15,156 nt of DNA from DASVDK01 sp036381125 [NCBI: Thermodesulfobacteriota bacterium] (lineage in GTDB: Bacteria > DASVDK01). Below, one piece after another: positions 2,033-14,203 of this stretch. The notes beneath the pieces were generated by a model. That model made no database searches. It was not told where the DNA came from and saw only the letters and a list, made by a program, of their open reading frames with translations. How positions within the stretch are numbered: position 1 is the stretch's first letter; each line of letters opens with the position of its first letter. The stretch spans positions 1 to 15,156 of the forward strand of contig DASVDK010000208.1 of NCBI GenBank assembly GCA_036381125.1. Reading direction: 5' to 3'. The position numbers were made by a program, and so were the translations under genes.

Positions 2033-2062
2033 TTGACAGCCGACGGGCAGGGTCGGTACCGT
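2033..2062 (+). promoter_or_regulatory. Sigma70-type promoter for the nitroreductase gene
   Basis: A perfect -35 box TTGACA (2033-2038) is followed by an 18-base spacer and TACCGT (2057-2062), a TAnnnT-type -10. It starts 13 bases after the stop of the HEAT-repeat gene. The start point should lie near 2069, leaving a leader of about 60 bases with a good Shine-Dalgarno at 2119-2125. Confidence 0.6.
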
Positions 2063-2131
2063 TCACGCGGCGGCGGCGCCGGCACCCGATGCCGCGCGCG
2101 CCACGTTCCCTTTCCCCGAAGGAGGCGACGC

Positions 2132-2692
2132 GTGGACGTCCTCGACGCGATCCGGACCCGGCGCAGCATCGCCGTCTACTGTGCCGACCCGGTCCCGAAG
2201 GGGAAGCTGCGCGCCATCCTCGAGGCCGCCACCTGGGCGCCCAACCACCGGCACAACGAGCCCTGGTTCTTCCACGTGGTGGAGGGCGAGGCGCGCGCCC
2301 GACTCGCCGACCGGTTGCTCGAGGCGGCGCGTGCGGACGCGGGCGGCGACAAGGCCCGGGGCAAGGTCCGGACGACGGCCGAGCGGATCCGCAACACGCC
2401 GACCGTCGTCTTCGTCCAGACCTTCGCCGCGGCGACGCCACACGACACGGAGGAGAACTACGCGGCGGCCTGCTGCGCCGTGCAGAACCTGCTCCTGGCG
2501 GCACACGCCGAAGGGCTCGGGGCGATCTGGCGCACCGGGGTGCCGTGCGAGCACCCGGTCGTCAAGGCGTTCCTCGGGGTCCCCGGCGACGCCAAGCTCG
2601 TGGCCGCCGTCTTCCTCGGCTTCCCTGCGGCGCCCGCACCACCCCAGACCCGGCGCCCGCTCGAGGAGCGGGTCCGCTTCCTCGCCGAATGA
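2132..2692 (+). CDS. Nitroreductase family FMN oxidoreductase
   Basis: The 186-residue product is a single-domain nitroreductase, normally a homodimeric flavoprotein that uses NAD(P)H to reduce nitro compounds, quinones or related substrates in the cytoplasm. Visible motifs are the N-terminal FMN-phosphate-binding RTRRSI (8-13), APNHRHNEPW (36-45, matching the usual AP-S-x-x-N-x-Q-PW loop), the central helix around Asn109-Gly130 with repeated Ala and Cys114-Cys115, and the C-terminal GVPGDAKLVAAVFLGFPA (149-166). A GTG start at 2132 is chosen because AAGGAGG lies at 2119-2125 and the protein then starts at the normal family position; an upstream in-frame extension to 2033 would be Arg/Gly-rich low-complexity sequence. 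It has its own promoter at 2033-2062. Its stop overlaps the next ATG in an ATGA. Specific substrate unknown. Confidence 0.9.
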   Translation: MDVLDAIRTRRSIAVYCADPVPKGKLRAILEAATWAPNHRHNEPWFFHVVEGEARARLADRLLEAARADAGGDKARGKVRTTAERIRNTPTVVFVQTFAAATPHDTEENYAAACCAVQNLLLAAHAEGLGAIWRTGVPCEHPVVKAFLGVPGDAKLVAAVFLGFPAAPAPPQTRRPLEERVRFLAE

Positions 2693-2853
2693 CCCGCCGG
2701 CGCACCCTGCCGGGCCTCCTGGCCGCGACGTTGATCGCCGGACCGGCGGCCGCGAACGGCGTCCTCGCCTTCATCGTGAAGAGCTTCACCGGCGGACCAC
2801 CTTCGTCATCGACCCCGGCGGCCGCGGCGCTGCGCGCGTGCGGCGGCCGGTGA
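2689..2853 (+). CDS. Possible small secreted protein (54 aa), unrecognised
   Basis: This short ORF starts in an ATGA overlap with the nitroreductase stop, an arrangement typical of translational coupling. It begins with three Arg residues and a hydrophobic stretch ending in Ala-Ala-Ala-Asn (about 1-23), which looks like a signal peptide. The remainder is about 31 residues containing LAFIVKSF and a Ser/Pro/Ala-rich end. I recognise no family. The ORF ends 25 bases before the A-tract of the minus-strand terminator. A shift of frame near 2800 would give a longer reading, but it runs into the terminator hairpin, so I do not call a frameshift. It may be real or a chance ORF. Confidence 0.35.
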   Translation: MTRRRTLPGLLAATLIAGPAAANGVLAFIVKSFTGGPPSSSTPAAAALRACGGR

Positions 2854-2878
2854 CCGCTCCACTCGACAGCTCGGGAAC

Positions 2879-2915
2879 AAAAAAAGCCCCGACCCGGCGT
2901 ACGCCGGGTCGGGGC
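2879..2915 (-). terminator. Intrinsic terminator, 13-bp stem plus T7
   Basis: Bases 2886-2915 are a perfect 30-base palindrome (13-bp stem, loop GTAC). Seven As at 2879-2885 precede it on the + strand, so on the minus strand the hairpin is followed by TTTTTTT. No T-run lies on the + side, so it works leftwards only. It ends the small RNA starting near 3040. Confidence 0.9.
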
Positions 2916-3040
2916 GCGTCGGGGCCGGCCCTGAGGCCGGCATGTGGCCGAAACGAAGGATCTCGCCGTAGGAAGAGTCCCTCGGGCCCCCCGCGGAGCG
3001 AGTGCGGGGACATACGGACCTCGGGCTGCTCGGCGAGCAG
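2879..3040 (-). ncRNA. Candidate small RNA of about 160 nt, unassigned family
   Basis: A strong promoter reading leftwards (3046-3075) and a strong intrinsic terminator (2879-2915) bracket about 160 bases that contain no convincing minus-strand ORF. The RNA predicted by eye has four hairpin elements. From its 5' end they are CTGCTC-GCC-GAGCAG (3040-3026), a C4GC/GCG4 stem near 3008-2988, GCCGGCC-TCAG-GGCCGGC (2941-2924), and the terminator stem. A long-range pairing CCGTA with TACGG near 3016 and 2970 could enclose the second element. I compared it with what I remember of 6S, SRP, RNase P, tmRNA, tRNA and common riboswitches and saw no diagnostic motif. Size, promoter strength and an independent terminator fit an abundant trans-acting or housekeeping sRNA; a divergent 6S RNA is the alternative I cannot exclude. 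The start point is inferred at 3038-3040. Confidence 0.65.
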
Positions 3041-3045
3041 GGTCC

Positions 3046-3075
3046 ATACTACGGGCAGCCGGAATGGGCTGTCAA
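3046..3075 (-). promoter_or_regulatory. Strong sigma70-type promoter of the small RNA
   Basis: Read on the minus strand, TTGACA (3075-3070) is followed by an 18-base spacer and TAGTAT (3051-3046). An A/T-rich patch at about 3086-3100 sits where an UP element would act. A second TTGACA on the same strand lies at 3129-3124, without an obvious -10 at the right distance. Confidence 0.75.
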
Positions 3076-3334
3076 CGCGCGTCGCGAAACTAAATTATGG
3101 CGAACTGACGATAACTTATGCGGTGTCAAGGGCTTTTGACCGCGCACCGACGACATTTTTCGCGAGGGCCGGGCGCTCGCGCCCCCGGCGGCCCCGCCCG
3201 TCGCCGCCGGGGCTGCCGGCCCACAGGGGCAAAAGCCGGGCCCTGAGGCCCCATTTTCGGCACCGCCTTCGGCCGCCGCGCAGCAATCGGGTCGCCTGAT
3301 ACGGCAGGCGAGCGTCCACTGACTAAGAATTTGC
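3076..3334. other. Gene-free stretch with an AT island and stem-loops
   Basis: No credible ORF lies here. Bases 3086-3122 are unusually A/T-rich for this window. Stem-loops follow: a 10-bp stem at 3183-3192/3203-3212 (CCCCGGCGGC with its complement), GGGCC-CTGA-GGCCC at 3238-3251 flanked by AAAA (3231-3234) and TTTT (3254-3257), and CGCCTG-ATACGG-CAGGCG at 3293-3310. The second looks like a weak bidirectional terminator. Its 12-mer GGCCCTGAGGCC also occurs in the small RNA at 2927-2938. The stretch may separate the sRNA promoter from the response-regulator gene. Confidence 0.45.
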
Positions 3335-3363
3335 TTGCCTGCCGAAACGACCGGGTGTAGCTT
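3335..3363 (+). promoter_or_regulatory. Promoter of the response-regulator gene, near-leaderless
   Basis: TTGCCT (3335-3340), a 17-base spacer and TAGCTT (3358-3363) precede the ATG at 3373 by only nine bases, putting the start point at about 3370-3373. No Shine-Dalgarno sequence is present. An inverted repeat GGCAGGC (3303-3309) / GCCTGCC (3337-3343) overlaps the -35 box and could be an operator. Confidence 0.5.
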
Positions 3364-3372
3364 CCCGACGCT

Positions 3373-4023
3373 ATGGAAACCCACATCCTCGTCGTCGACG
3401 ACGACCCGAGCATTCGAAGCTTCCTGAAGACCGCGCTCGAGCGTACGCCGGGCCAGCACGTGGAGGTGGCCTCCGACGCCGCGACCGCGTTGACCATGGT
3501 GCGCCACGGTCAATACGGTGTCGTCCTGGTCGACCTCCGGCTGCCGGGTCAGGGCGGGGCCGAGCTGCTCCGGACGCTCAAGCAGGAGCGGCCCGATCTC
3601 CCGGTCATCGCCATCACGGGGGCGGCGACGACGGAGGAGGCGCTGCAGGCGATCCGCCTGGGCGCCGTCGACGTCATCCTCAAGCCGATCTCCCTGCCGC
3701 AGCTCAACGAGGCGATGCAGAAGGGGCTCGCCCGGCGCCAGGCACCGGCCGCGGTGGTCGACACCGCGCTGCCGCTGCTCGCCATGCGCGAGAAGGCGGT
3801 GCGCCAGCTCGAGCGGGACTACCTGATCCGCGTGCTGACGGAGGAGCGGGGTCACCTCGGGGCGACTGCGCGTCGTGCCGGCGTGAACGCGAAGACGCTC
3901 TACGAGAAGATGCGCGCGTACGGCCTCCGCAAGGAGGACTTCCGGCGCCGGGGCGGCTTCGCCCGCGCCGCGACCGCCGCCTCCTCGTCCTCGTCCCCGT
4001 CGCCCGCCCCCTCGAACGCCTAG
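3373..4023 (+). CDS. Response regulator, REC domain plus Fis-type HTH
   Basis: The 216-residue product is a two-component response regulator. Residues 4-118 form the receiver domain with acidic residues Asp9-Asp11, phospho-acceptor Asp54 in VLVDLRLPG, switch Thr82 in AITGA and conserved Lys104 in ILKP. Residues about 143-189 are a Fis/NtrC-type helix-turn-helix (ERDYLIRVL, then ATARRAGVNAKTLYEKMRAYGL). There is no AAA+ sigma54-activation domain between them, so the layout is like ActR/RegA/PrrA-type regulators, which act with sigma70. The tail from about 191 is Arg-, then Ser/Pro/Ala-rich and probably disordered. No histidine kinase gene is adjacent, so this is an orphan in the window. The start has no Shine-Dalgarno but sits just behind a promoter-like sequence. 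Targets are unknown; neither the TGATACCC repeats near 14000 nor any other site can be linked to it from sequence alone. Confidence 0.92.
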   Translation: METHILVVDDDPSIRSFLKTALERTPGQHVEVASDAATALTMVRHGQYGVVLVDLRLPGQGGAELLRTLKQERPDLPVIAITGAATTEEALQAIRLGAVDVILKPISLPQLNEAMQKGLARRQAPAAVVDTALPLLAMREKAVRQLERDYLIRVLTEERGHLGATARRAGVNAKTLYEKMRAYGLRKEDFRRRGGFARAATAASSSSSPSPAPSNA

Positions 4024-4137: not shown

Positions 4138-5265
4138 CTACCGCGCGAGGAGCCGCGTCCGCAAGGCCTCCGTGCGCTCCGGCTGCGCGGGGGCGTCCTC
4201 GAGCGCCAGGGCCGCCCGTCGAGGCGGCCGGCCTGCCAGCTCCACGACGCCCGAGCCGGGCCGTCTCCCCTCGGAGGCGGCCGCGAGGGTGATCCGGTGC
4301 GCGAGGCGAGCGGGCATGCGCGCCAGCACCTGGGCGGCGAGGGGCGAGCCGCCCTGCAGGCCGGCGTCGGCGAGGGAGACCACGGGGGCGAGCGCCGTGC
4401 GGGGCGACGCCTCGAGGAGGCCGAGCAGCGGCGGCACGAGGTACGCCTCCGCCGTGTCGAGCAGGAGCAGGAGCGGCATGGCCGGAGCCGGCCGACTCTC
4501 GATCGCCACCCGCAGGTCGGCCAGCACGAGCGCGGCGAGCGAGGCTGCGAGCGCCTCGTCCGCCACCACCCCGAGCCCGACGTAGAGCAGCCCTCCGCCC
4601 TCCACGACGGCGCCCAGGTCGATCTCGTTCGATTCGGCCATGAGCGGCGCCGCCCCGTCGTTCATCAGCAGACGATCGAGTTCCTGCGCGAGACGCCGAC
4701 GCCAGGTGGCGGGGCCGACCACCGGGAGGCCGGCCTGCGCGCGCGCGAGGCGGCGCCGGTCCGACGGCTCCGACTCGGCGAGCCGGCGACGCACCGCGGC
4801 CAGGGTGAGCGGGCCGCCCTCGTCGAGCAGGCCGGCGACCAGCGCCTCGGCGCCGCGCCGCGTGGCGCCGTCCACGGCCGACCCGGCGCGGCGCGCGGGG
4901 GGTGCGCCGAGGTGCAGGAGCAGGCTGGCGAGCGGCGCGAGCCCCTTGCCGGCGAGCGGGTTGTACCGATGGCTGCGCGACGGCGTCGACGGCTCGTAGA
5001 GCCGCACGACGTCGAGCCGGTCGGCCTGCTCCGCGGCGGCGAGGAAGGCGCCGAGGGCGCGGCGCGAGGGCCGGCCCTCCAGGAAGACCGCTCCGCCGCC
5101 GCGCGCGACCTGCCGGGCGAGCAGCGCGAGGAGCACGCTCCGCTTGCCGCCGCCCGGTGGACCGCCGACGGCGATCCCCTCGAGGAGCTCCCCCTCGGTG
5201 ATCACGATCGGAGCGCCGTCATCCTCCGACCGACCGATCGACAGCGCCGGCGCGCTCCGGTCCAT
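4138..5265 (-). CDS. TraG/VirD4 (T4CP)-like P-loop protein with altered Walker motifs
   Basis: The 375-residue product resembles the ATPase core of type IV coupling proteins (TraG/TraD/VirD4) and relatives. Seen in order: a P-loop-like GGPPGGGKRS (34-43), RYNPL (100-104, like the NPL motif of that family), a linker region, NEIDLGAVVEGGGLLYVGLG (213-232, the usual stretch after the all-alpha insert), a Walker-B-like LLLLLD (265-270) followed by TAE, and VVSLADAGL (295-303) in the sensor position. Two key positions deviate: Arg42 replaces the Ser/Thr after the P-loop Lys41, and the Glu normally next to Asp270 is three residues on (Glu273). There are no N-terminal membrane helices. No relaxase or type IV secretion gene lies nearby, so a conjugation role is not supported. 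The ATG at 5265 is chosen because a promoter sits eight bases upstream; a TTG at 5307 would fall inside that promoter. Function unknown. Confidence 0.7.
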   Translation of the reverse strand: MDRSAPALSIGRSEDDGAPIVITEGELLEGIAVGGPPGGGKRSVLLALLARQVARGGGAVFLEGRPSRRALGAFLAAAEQADRLDVVRLYEPSTPSRSHRYNPLAGKGLAPLASLLLHLGAPPARRAGSAVDGATRRGAEALVAGLLDEGGPLTLAAVRRRLAESEPSDRRRLARAQAGLPVVGPATWRRRLAQELDRLLMNDGAAPLMAESNEIDLGAVVEGGGLLYVGLGVVADEALAASLAALVLADLRVAIESRPAPAMPLLLLLDTAEAYLVPPLLGLLEASPRTALAPVVSLADAGLQGGSPLAAQVLARMPARLAHRITLAAASEGRRPGSGVVELAGRPPRRAALALEDAPAQPERTEALRTRLLAR

Positions 5266-5273
5266 GGCCGCAC

Positions 5274-5302
5274 ACCCTACCCCTGGGCAGGGGGGTTGGC
5301 AA
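5274..5302 (-). promoter_or_regulatory. Promoter of the P-loop gene, probably leaderless
   Basis: On the minus strand TTGCCA (5302-5297), a 17-base spacer and TAGGGT (5279-5274) lie just eight bases before the ATG at 5265. The start point would fall on or next to the ATG. The -35 box overlaps the palindrome TTGGC-AA-GCCAA (5296-5307) in the gap shared with the divergent phosphatase gene. Confidence 0.55.
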
Positions 5303-5323
5303 GCCAAAAGCCGGGAACGCCTC

Positions 5324-8388: not shown

Positions 8389-9335
8389 TCAGCGGGCGGC
8401 CTCGCGACGCATCGCGACCAGCGCGTCGGCGGTCGCCTCGGCCCGTGCGGCCCAGCCGTCCAGGACGGCGGCGGCGCCCCGGTGCTCGGCGGCGCGGGCG
8501 GCGTAGTACGCGCCGGCCCCGCGCGCCTCGGCCTCGAGCCGCTCGAGGAGCGCCGGGAGCTGGCCGAAGCGTGCGGCGCCCTCGAAGAGGACCTCGATCA
8601 TCCGGGGCCGTTCGAGGAGGGCGAGGGGAAGGGCGAGTCGACCCGCCAGGCGGTGGAGCGTCTCGCGCGAGAGAAAGAGGCCGGCCACAAGCGGGGTCGC
8701 GAGGTATCGGCCGACCCCTTCCAGATCGGCGTCGCGCAGGGAGGCGCGCGCGGGGGCCGCCGTCTCGGCCGCGCCGGCCTCCGCGGCGACCGGCAGGCTC
8801 GCGGCGCCGAGCCGCGCGAGGTCGCCGAGCACGACGTCGGCCGTCACGTCGGCGAGGACCCGGTAGAACGGGTGCCGCGCGTCGCGCCCTACCGCCTCGG
8901 CGAAGGGGGCGACGAAGGCGGCCAGGTGCGTCTCGAGGAAGCGGCGCTGGACGGCGGCCGGCGCGCCGTCGATCAGGGCCGCCGCGAACCAGAGTTCGGC
9001 GCCGACGTGGTCGGCCGCCCCCGGCCGGGGGACGCCCGAGACCTCGAAGCCGGCCGCCCGGTAGGCCGCCTCCACCGCCACGCTCGGCGCGGCCCCGAGC
9101 ATCACCGACTCGTCGAGGAAGACCGACTCGTACGGGTAGACGTTCAGCAGGAAGAGGCGCGCGTACTCCGCGCGCAGGCGGGCGGCCGCCCCCCCGTCCG
9201 TCTCGCCGGCGAGCGCCTCGCCGAAGGCGGGCCACTCGCGCAGGCGCCCGACGAGCGCGGCGTCCGGCTCGGCGAGGAAGAGCCGCCCGAGGAGGCGGTA
9301 GAGCGCCGAGCGGTCGGCGCCGTCCTCACCCCCGC

Positions 9336-9339
<4 letters not shown>
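8389..9339 (-). CDS. TorD/DmsD-type molybdoenzyme chaperone with extended C-terminus
   Basis: The 316-residue product is a cytoplasmic chaperone that helps insert the molybdopterin cofactor into, and protects, its partner enzyme. Residues about 9-180 are the all-helical TorD-like domain: LYRLLGRLFL (13-22), RAEYARLFL (56-64), PYESVF (69-74) and the hallmark DHVGAELWFAA (110-120). A Pro/Ala-rich linker (about 181-199) leads to a second helical region (about 200-316) that ordinary TorD proteins of about 200-220 residues lack; I recognise no family there. The GTG start is chosen because it overlaps the preceding TGA (GTGA), implying translational coupling to the molybdoenzyme gene; no strong Shine-Dalgarno is seen. 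This frame is open through the whole upstream operon, but only as a shadow. The partner is very probably the 992-residue enzyme encoded just upstream. Confidence 0.88.
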
Positions 9340-12314
<2,975 letters not shown>

Positions 12315-12318
12315 GGAT

Positions 12319-12331
12319 CGAAGCTCCTTCG
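12319..12331 (-). promoter_or_regulatory. Ribosome binding site inside a small hairpin
   Basis: Upstream of the molybdoenzyme ATG the minus strand reads CGAAG-GAG-CTTCG, a 5-bp stem with a three-base loop. The Shine-Dalgarno AAGGAG is spread over one arm and the loop. It sits between the NrfD-fusion stop (12333-12335) and the ATG at 12314, so ribosomes finishing the upstream gene could open it. Confidence 0.5.
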
Positions 12332-12332
12332 G

Positions 12333-13943
12333 CTAGCTCATCGGGACGGACTGACCTGCAGCCACCCACCGGTCCTCGAAGGCGAGCAGGCCGATCAGCG
12401 CGAGCACGCTCGCGGCGCCGGCCGCGATGCCCGACGGCAGCGCCCCGACCGCCCCGAGGGCGAGCGCGAGGAGCGGCGCCGCGACGCCGACGCCGGCGGC
12501 AACGAGCCAGAAGCGGCCCGCCAGCCGCCCGGCGCGCAGCGCGTCGGCAGCGAGCGCGACGTGGGTGTTGGCGTGCGGCGTGTAGAGCTCCGCGGCCACG
12601 AACCCCGCGTGCGCGACGAGGCCGACGCCGAGGGCGCCGGCCAGGAAGACCAGCTCGGACGGCCGCGCCGCGCCGGCCAGCGCCACGAGCAGGAGCGCCG
12701 CCGCGCCGGCGAGCACCGCCTGGGCGAGGAGGTGGGGGGCGAGGAGCGGGCTCTGCCAGAAGTCGCGTCCCTCGGCCTGGCCGAAGAGGAACGCCGTGTA
12801 GACGGCGGCCAGCACGGCGAGGATCGCCCCCGGCCACCTGAGCCACCGGGCGGCCCCGTCGAGGAGCCCCACGTCGAGCAGGCCTGCCGCGAGCGACACG
12901 GCCGACACCGCGCCGAACGCCACGAGGACGTAGCCCCCCTTCACCAGCCAGGAGCTCCAGTTGCCCTTCGTGAGCAGGTAGTAGAAGCGCTCCGGGCGCT
13001 TGAGGTCGGCCACGAGGAGCCCCGCCGTGATGAGCGTGAAGACGAGCGCGAGGGCCGGGGCGGCCGTGCCGAAGAGGGCGCTCCGCTCGCCGATGCCGAC
13101 GCCGAGCGCCGCCGCCATGAGGAGGAAGGCTCCCGCCGCGATCGACTTGGTCCAGAGGTAGGCCGAGACGAGGCCGCCCCAGGGGGTCTCGTGGGCCACG
13201 TTGTAGTTCACCTGGCCGCCCTCGGTGAGGTAGCCGGCCGCGACCGACTCGCCCGGCCCCCCGCCGCGGCTGCCTCCGCTCGCGCGTACCAGCGCCGTGA
13301 GGTCGATCGCCTGCCCGTGCCCGCCGTGCGACGTGTCGCGGTGCTGCGACCACATGCCGCCCTGCGGGTCGGCGAACATCGCCGGCTCGAGGGCGGCCGT
13401 CTCGGCCCCCACGTACCAGAGCTTGGGCTGCGTGCCCTGCTCCGGCCGGCGGACCGCGACGTTCTCCCGCCCGAGCGTGCGGGCGATGCGGCTCGCCGGG
13501 TCGTCGAGGTCGCCCGAGATGATCGCCTGGGTCGGGCAGACCAGCACGCAGGCCGGCTCGAGCCCGACCTCCACCCGGTGCGCGCAGTAGTGGCACTTGG
13601 CGGCGGTGTTGGTGGCCGGGTCGATGTAGATCGCGTCGTAGGGGCAGGCCTGCATGCAGGCCTTGCAGCCGATGCAGCGCCGGTTGTCGAAGTCGACGAT
13701 GCCGTCCTTGCGGCGGTAGAGCGCCGAGGTGGGGCAGATCGTGGTGCAGGGGGAGTTCGCGCAGTGGTTGCAGCGCTGGACCAGGAAGTGGCGGCGGGTG
13801 TTCGGATAGGTCCCTTTCTCGACCGACTTCACCCACGTGCGGAAGACGCCCACCGGCACCTGATTCTCCGACTTGCAGGCGACCGTACAGGCGTGACACC
13901 CGATGCACCTGCGCTGGTCGATGACGAAGCCGTACGTCGGCAC
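12333..13943 (-). CDS. Ferredoxin-type Fe-S subunit fused to NrfD/PsrC membrane anchor
   Basis: The 536-residue product joins two subunits that are normally separate. Residues 1-145 form a four-cluster ferredoxin domain like PsrB/DmsB/SoeB: 16 Cys at 13,16,19,23; 58,61,66,70; 90,93,96,100; and 117,120,132,136. A linker (about 146-250) contains a His-rich HRDTSHGGHG (201-210). Residues about 251-536 are an NrfD/PsrC-type quinone-interacting membrane domain of about eight helices, with DLKRPERFYYLL (313-324), NWSSWLVKGG (328-337) and the end EDRWVAAGQSVPMS (523-536). It should shuttle electrons between the molybdenum subunit encoded next and the quinone pool. There is no signal peptide or Tat motif before the Fe-S domain, which suggests that this domain is cytoplasmic. 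The GTG start is supported by GGGGAGG (13949-13955) five bases upstream and by the normal ferredoxin N-terminus. First gene of a four-gene operon. Confidence 0.93.
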   Translation of the reverse strand: MPTYGFVIDQRRCIGCHACTVACKSENQVPVGVFRTWVKSVEKGTYPNTRRHFLVQRCNHCANSPCTTICPTSALYRRKDGIVDFDNRRCIGCKACMQACPYDAIYIDPATNTAAKCHYCAHRVEVGLEPACVLVCPTQAIISGDLDDPASRIARTLGRENVAVRRPEQGTQPKLWYVGAETAALEPAMFADPQGGMWSQHRDTSHGGHGQAIDLTALVRASGGSRGGGPGESVAAGYLTEGGQVNYNVAHETPWGGLVSAYLWTKSIAAGAFLLMAAALGVGIGERSALFGTAAPALALVFTLITAGLLVADLKRPERFYYLLTKGNWSSWLVKGGYVLVAFGAVSAVSLAAGLLDVGLLDGAARWLRWPGAILAVLAAVYTAFLFGQAEGRDFWQSPLLAPHLLAQAVLAGAAALLLVALAGAARPSELVFLAGALGVGLVAHAGFVAAELYTPHANTHVALAADALRAGRLAGRFWLVAAGVGVAAPLLALALGAVGALPSGIAAGAASVLALIGLLAFEDRWVAAGQSVPMS

Positions 13944-14040: not shown

Positions 14041-14203
14041 AGGATCGTTTATGCGCGGCCGGGCCGAACTCCCCAACCGCAGTCGGTCGGAGCGAGTCAC
14101 GGACGCGATGCGGAAGCCGGAAGGCCTGCCGGTCGTGACACGACGAGCCGCCCTTCTGCCGCCGGCGATCGCGGCGGCCGCATCGACCCGCCGGCCTCGC
14201 GTC

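Follow-up and report, generated by a model that had tools for sequence, protein, structure and literature searches.

The closest described counterparts of the locus analysed here are the intergenic units predicted by sRNAscanner, in which an orphan promoter, a short non-coding stretch and a Rho-independent terminator lie together in an intergenic gap (PMC2916834, in excerpt). According to the same excerpted study, Northern bands were obtained for 6 of 16 selected candidates, which deep sequencing had also picked up, and the share of high-scoring hits that are genuine was put by the authors at ∼40%. In the stretch of DNA that we analysed (15,156 bases, GC 0.743; hereafter the window), a minus-strand unit located between the genes for a nitroreductase and a response regulator fits this kind of object. 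The sRNAscanner matrices, in contrast, were trained on E. coli, and the host here is far more GC-rich. A second likeness is to PmaR (PMC6234868) and B11 (PMC10470900), which, in the excerpted reports, are structured RNAs with a C-containing exposed loop able to pair with G-rich mRNA stretches. Here, the corresponding element is a single loop that mixes C with U instead of carrying a C tract, taken from a single-sequence prediction, and we draw the comparison with these C-rich-loop small RNAs (sRNAs) as an analogy only, claiming no kinship.

Promoter, terminator and predicted transcript

On the minus strand, we identified a sigma-70-type promoter that matches 10 of the 12 consensus letters, as the preliminary description had stated for TTGACA-18-TAGTAT. 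The first promoter scan, under its rules, returned this site and no other, with 0.2 expected (50 shuffles of the 15156-base window), and a looser scan placed promoters of at least 10/12 at 0.01 expected per shuffled window (300 shuffles). The A/T-rich patch claimed upstream of the promoter is indeed present and is possibly an UP element or a shared divergent promoter region. On the plus strand, the looser scan added one 9/12 promoter site (start index 2032). Approximately 130 bases downstream of the minus-strand promoter, and on the same strand, lies the terminator hairpin. Its stem (2915-2886) is perfect, with G-C at 12 of 13 pairs, and is followed by seven T (2885-2879), in agreement with the 13-bp stem and T7 described previously. 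The loose terminator class was not enriched (3 found versus 2.3 expected in shuffles). Perfect stems of at least 8 bp with a T-rich tail occurred at 0.017 per shuffled window (300 shuffles), and stems of at least 11 bp were absent from all 300 shuffles of the 74% GC window. The combination of promoter and terminator is a real observation, and a chance pattern is excluded.

Judged by sequence, the unit carries what an sRNA gene would need, a promoter of its own and, on that strand too, a dedicated terminator, and these signals support well an independent short transcription unit of ∼160 nt, as was proposed earlier; no Rfam family claims it. The housekeeping RNA polymerase would start at ∼3039 on the minus strand and halt at the hairpin and T7 near 2880, yielding a non-coding RNA of ∼160 nt, the production of which is predicted from the promoter and terminator. 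Minus-strand frames called mechanically downstream of the unit lie opposite the nitroreductase gene and are without support; since that gene has Pfam support, we see no gene for which the RNA could be a leader or riboswitch. Because of the two signals, their order, spacing and rarity by chance, and because no supported gene lies downstream, our preferred but tentative reading, which we hold at a little under even confidence, is that the unit is an unassigned, stand-alone intergenic sRNA gene, perhaps encoding a trans-acting base-pairing regulator. That role is the likeliest, judging from the kind of RNA. With less confidence, we propose that the sRNA may be trans-acting and pair with targets by means of exposed bases, for instance those of the ACUCGCUCC loop, the CUCC of which could cover a GGAG ribosome-binding site. 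The candidate is probably a gene with well-made signals that is ordinary in kind. If transcribed, it would add an unassigned sRNA gene beside a response regulator and leave the general picture unchanged; its value hinges on expression and conservation.

Table 1. Coordinates of the candidate sRNA unit, its signals and neighbouring features in the window
Feature	Position	Strand	Remarks
Predicted small RNA, ∼160 nt	2879..3039	-	Start inferred from distance to -10 box
Sigma-70-type promoter TTGACA-18-TAGTAT	3046..3075	-	10/12 consensus letters
TTGACA box	3075-3070	-	Spacer 18 nt
TAGTAT box	3051-3046	-	Spacer 18 nt
A/T-rich patch upstream of promoter	3080..3139		GC 0.45 versus 0.743 for the window
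Rho-independent terminator	2879..2915	-	13-bp stem, loop of 4, T7
Nine-base apical loop ACUCGCUCC	2995..3003	-	Unpaired in single-sequence fold; contains CUCC, complementary to GGAG
7-bp local hairpin, loop UCAG	2924..2941	-	Rival to long-range helix of minimum-energy fold
GGCCCTGAGGCC/GCCGAAACGA copies	2927-2956 and 3239-3350	+	
Promoter-like site, 8/12	3069-3098	+	
Inverted repeat	3302-3344		12-nt arms, 92% complementary, 19 nt between
75-codon frame	Opens 3013, ends 2786	-	GAGG five bases before start; crosses terminator
161-codon frame	Opens 3047	-	Opens within -10 box
45-codon frame	Opens 2943	-	
Nitroreductase gene	∼2033-2692	+	Pfam support
Possible 54-codon frame	2689-2853	+	ATG overlaps nitroreductase stop (ATGA); GC3 0.89
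Response-regulator gene	3373-4023	+	Fis-type helix-turn-helix; divergent from sRNA
389-codon frame	4138-5307	-	No Pfam match
Molybdopterin oxidoreductase cluster	8389-13943	-	

Predicted fold and searches for relatives

A non-functional transcript is a somewhat unlikely alternative: the signals may be real, or active by chance, with the product being mere noise, the result of an antisense start, or part of an insulator that separates the neighbouring genes. Promoter-plus-terminator predictions frequently go unconfirmed, as the excerpted sRNAscanner study indicates (PMC2916834). Against this, it is very unlikely that chance would bring the two signals together in DNA of this composition. In addition, the T-run is on the minus side only, so that the hairpin is unlike a terminator of the nitroreductase gene and would have no other evident transcript to serve.

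The predicted fold bears on the same question. The whole RNA (162 nt) folded at -95.9 kcal/mol (z -5.28), and none of 200 shuffles was as good. When the terminator was removed, z dropped to -1.84: 13 of 300 shuffles then folded as well, and 11 of 120 segments drawn at random from the window were no less extreme. Thus, the modelled fold energy owes much to the terminator and the remainder is slightly better than chance, and a terminator-less fold this near chance is what a non-functional transcript might show. The single-sequence prediction is a three-way junction plus the terminator hairpin. Enforcing the local hairpin with the UCAG loop gave -54.4 compared with -61.1 kcal/mol, a cost of 6.7 kcal/mol. 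The "several stem-loops" of the preliminary description are therefore present in the predicted fold, although what lies outside the terminator reaches only the modest z-score given above. A dispersed palindromic repeat was also considered, as CGAAGGATCTC resembles repeats known from other soil bacteria.

The searches made recognised neither a homologue nor a conserved structure, which also favours a non-functional product. The distance of the genomes searched was gauged from protein matches. A response-regulator search of genome contigs gave 30 loci of 26-57% identity, none close. MetX was matched in 11 of 21 genomes drawn from those that hold the response-regulator loci (best 55%), in 42/140 genomes in the phylum of G006 (best 53%), in 36/112 in the phylum of G013 (a set that largely overlaps that of G006) and in 83/247 in the phylum of G015 (best 58%). 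Since MetX identity did not exceed 58%, we judge that the genomes searched lie outside the host's own class and probably outside its own phylum, and the lack of a recognised homologue among them does not refute conservation. Among 148 relatives of G404, the response regulator had no match at E ≤ 1e-30 among at most 20 candidates scored per genome, an empty answer that is uninformative.

A DNA search with 2880-3110 was made in 297 genomes, namely the phylum of G404, the nearest reached, many of which are shared with the G015-phylum set. Matches at E ≤ 0.01 were obtained in 16 of these genomes, at 19 places. Thirteen of the 19 fall in the terminator end (query 167-227) and the other six elsewhere, and no homologue was recognised among the matches in this phylum. 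The longest of the six (L038, 78% over ∼60 nt) was rejected, as it falls within a ∼313-codon open frame and has the character of coding sequence. On plasmids, four records matched short pieces only (31% and 12% of the query), and no homologue was recognised. Four patterns searched in viral contigs gave 0, 3, 5 and 3 stretches, again with no homologue recognised, and these contigs held no relative of the nitroreductase or the response regulator. When the unit was compared with 55 loci by blastn, similarity to 11 viral stretches was confined to the surroundings of the pattern (at most 34 nt).

Base pairing with candidate targets

For the stand-alone sRNA gene that we prefer, targets were sought within the window. 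The exact complement of the nine-base loop occurs twice, in the loop's own opposite strand and at 14089-14097. Allowing up to one mismatch, there are four complements in all (two exact and two with one mismatch) compared with 9.3 expected. Because loop complements are not enriched, the window offers no target for the ACUCGCUCC loop, a further difference from PmaR and B11. Duplex energies were calculated for 12 start regions, two of which are overlapping stretches before the response regulator and some of which have approximate start positions. The NrfC/D region was best and beat 60 of 60 shuffles (z -2.97, as a single test), and TauE beat all but 2 of 60 (z -1.83, likewise a single test).

Two short sequences, GGCCCTGAGGCC and GCCGAAACGA, are each present in exactly two copies in the window: one copy of each lies inside the sRNA gene and the other before the response regulator, and their order is the same at both places. 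Such copies might allow a local regulatory loop, in which two collinear stretches of the sRNA pair with the mRNA leader of the divergent response regulator; we regard this as improbable. The complementary stretches are of 12 nt (2927-2938 with 3239-3250) and 10 nt (2947-2956 with 3341-3350), both exact and in the order required for pairing. A match of at least 12 arose in 36 of 2000 shuffles, and two collinear matches totalling 22 in 4 of 2000. Furthermore, transcription from the 8/12 promoter-like site on the plus strand would yield a leader holding both stretches. However, the arrangement was noticed after the fact, and the 12-mer is GC-rich and near-palindromic, with at least two copies at up to one mismatch in 18 of 200 shuffled windows. 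Both sites are buried, opening them costs 10.7 and 16.5 kcal/mol, and the duplex formed with 3140-3400 has an unremarkable total energy (z -0.71; equalled by 18 of 60 shuffles). The response-regulator mRNA may also be leaderless, since no Shine-Dalgarno precedes its ATG and a weak TAGCTT lies nine bases upstream of the gene (seen by eye; below the 8/12 scan). Just upstream of the response regulator there is an inverted repeat, possibly an operator or a leader hairpin.

Known RNA families, coding potential and neighbouring genes

The preliminary description had found no motif of 6S, SRP, RNase P, tmRNA, tRNA or a known riboswitch, and no Rfam family reached its gathering threshold anywhere in the window. 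There is no tRNA or tmRNA in the window by ARAGORN or Rfam, and no match to SRP RNA or RNase P, either by Rfam at thresholds or in a permissive scan of 2860-3380. That scan gave 13 matches, all below gathering scores, nine of which are on the minus strand over the terminator stem (NsiR1, F6, ctRNA_pGA1 and others). For the abundant regulatory or housekeeping RNA proposed in the preliminary description, no support was obtained: the searches recognised no homologue, and the fold outside the terminator is not clearly unusual. We consider it distinctly improbable that the unit encodes an abundant RNA confined to a very GC-rich clade, with a housekeeping role and a new three-way-junction fold, which replaces or supplements a known general RNA.

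The unit might instead be a short mRNA or a dual-function RNA, read from the ATG at 3013. This has a GAGG upstream, and both elements are placed ∼25 nt past the inferred transcript start. The earlier statement that there is "no ORF between" the signals was nearly right, except that mechanical frames do cross the stretch, including this 75-codon minus-strand frame. No other frame opens early in the transcript; this one has no stop codon before the transcript ends at the terminator, and the perfect palindrome would fall inside it. Third-position GC in the part within the transcript is 0.73, whereas ten protein frames of the window, some with approximate starts, gave 0.92-0.97. Given the missing stop and the low third-position GC, the RNA is tentatively taken as non-coding, and we hold the coding alternative to be very improbable.

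6S RNA folds into a single long rod that is bulged at its centre. The candidate resembles 6S RNA (RF00013) in its similar length and in having its own promoter, and differs in its predicted three-way junction plus terminator hairpin. Of the 21 genomes around G015, 15 gave a 6S hit above cut-off, compared with only 4 of 14 control genomes, so the silence of the 6S model at this locus is good, if imperfect, evidence. We consider it extremely unlikely, despite the size and the independent strong promoter, that the unit is a divergent form of a known housekeeping RNA, above all 6S, because 6S is not among the 13 permissive matches at E ≤ 10 (2860-3380) and SRP RNA, RNase P and tmRNA are likewise without a match.

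Further genes lie downstream of the response regulator. A minus-strand cluster encodes a molybdopterin oxidoreductase, a protein in which ferredoxin and NrfD are fused, and a chaperone of the nitrate-reductase-delta (TorD-like) type; beyond it lies a TauE transporter. For the oxidoreductase and the ferredoxin-NrfD protein, even the best NCBIfam models fall far short of their cut-offs, too low to assign a substrate. Next to the response regulator, the 389-codon frame resembles an ATPase that carries a GGPPGGGKRS P-loop; its TraD-like match is weak (E 7.7e-06) and well short of the cut-off.
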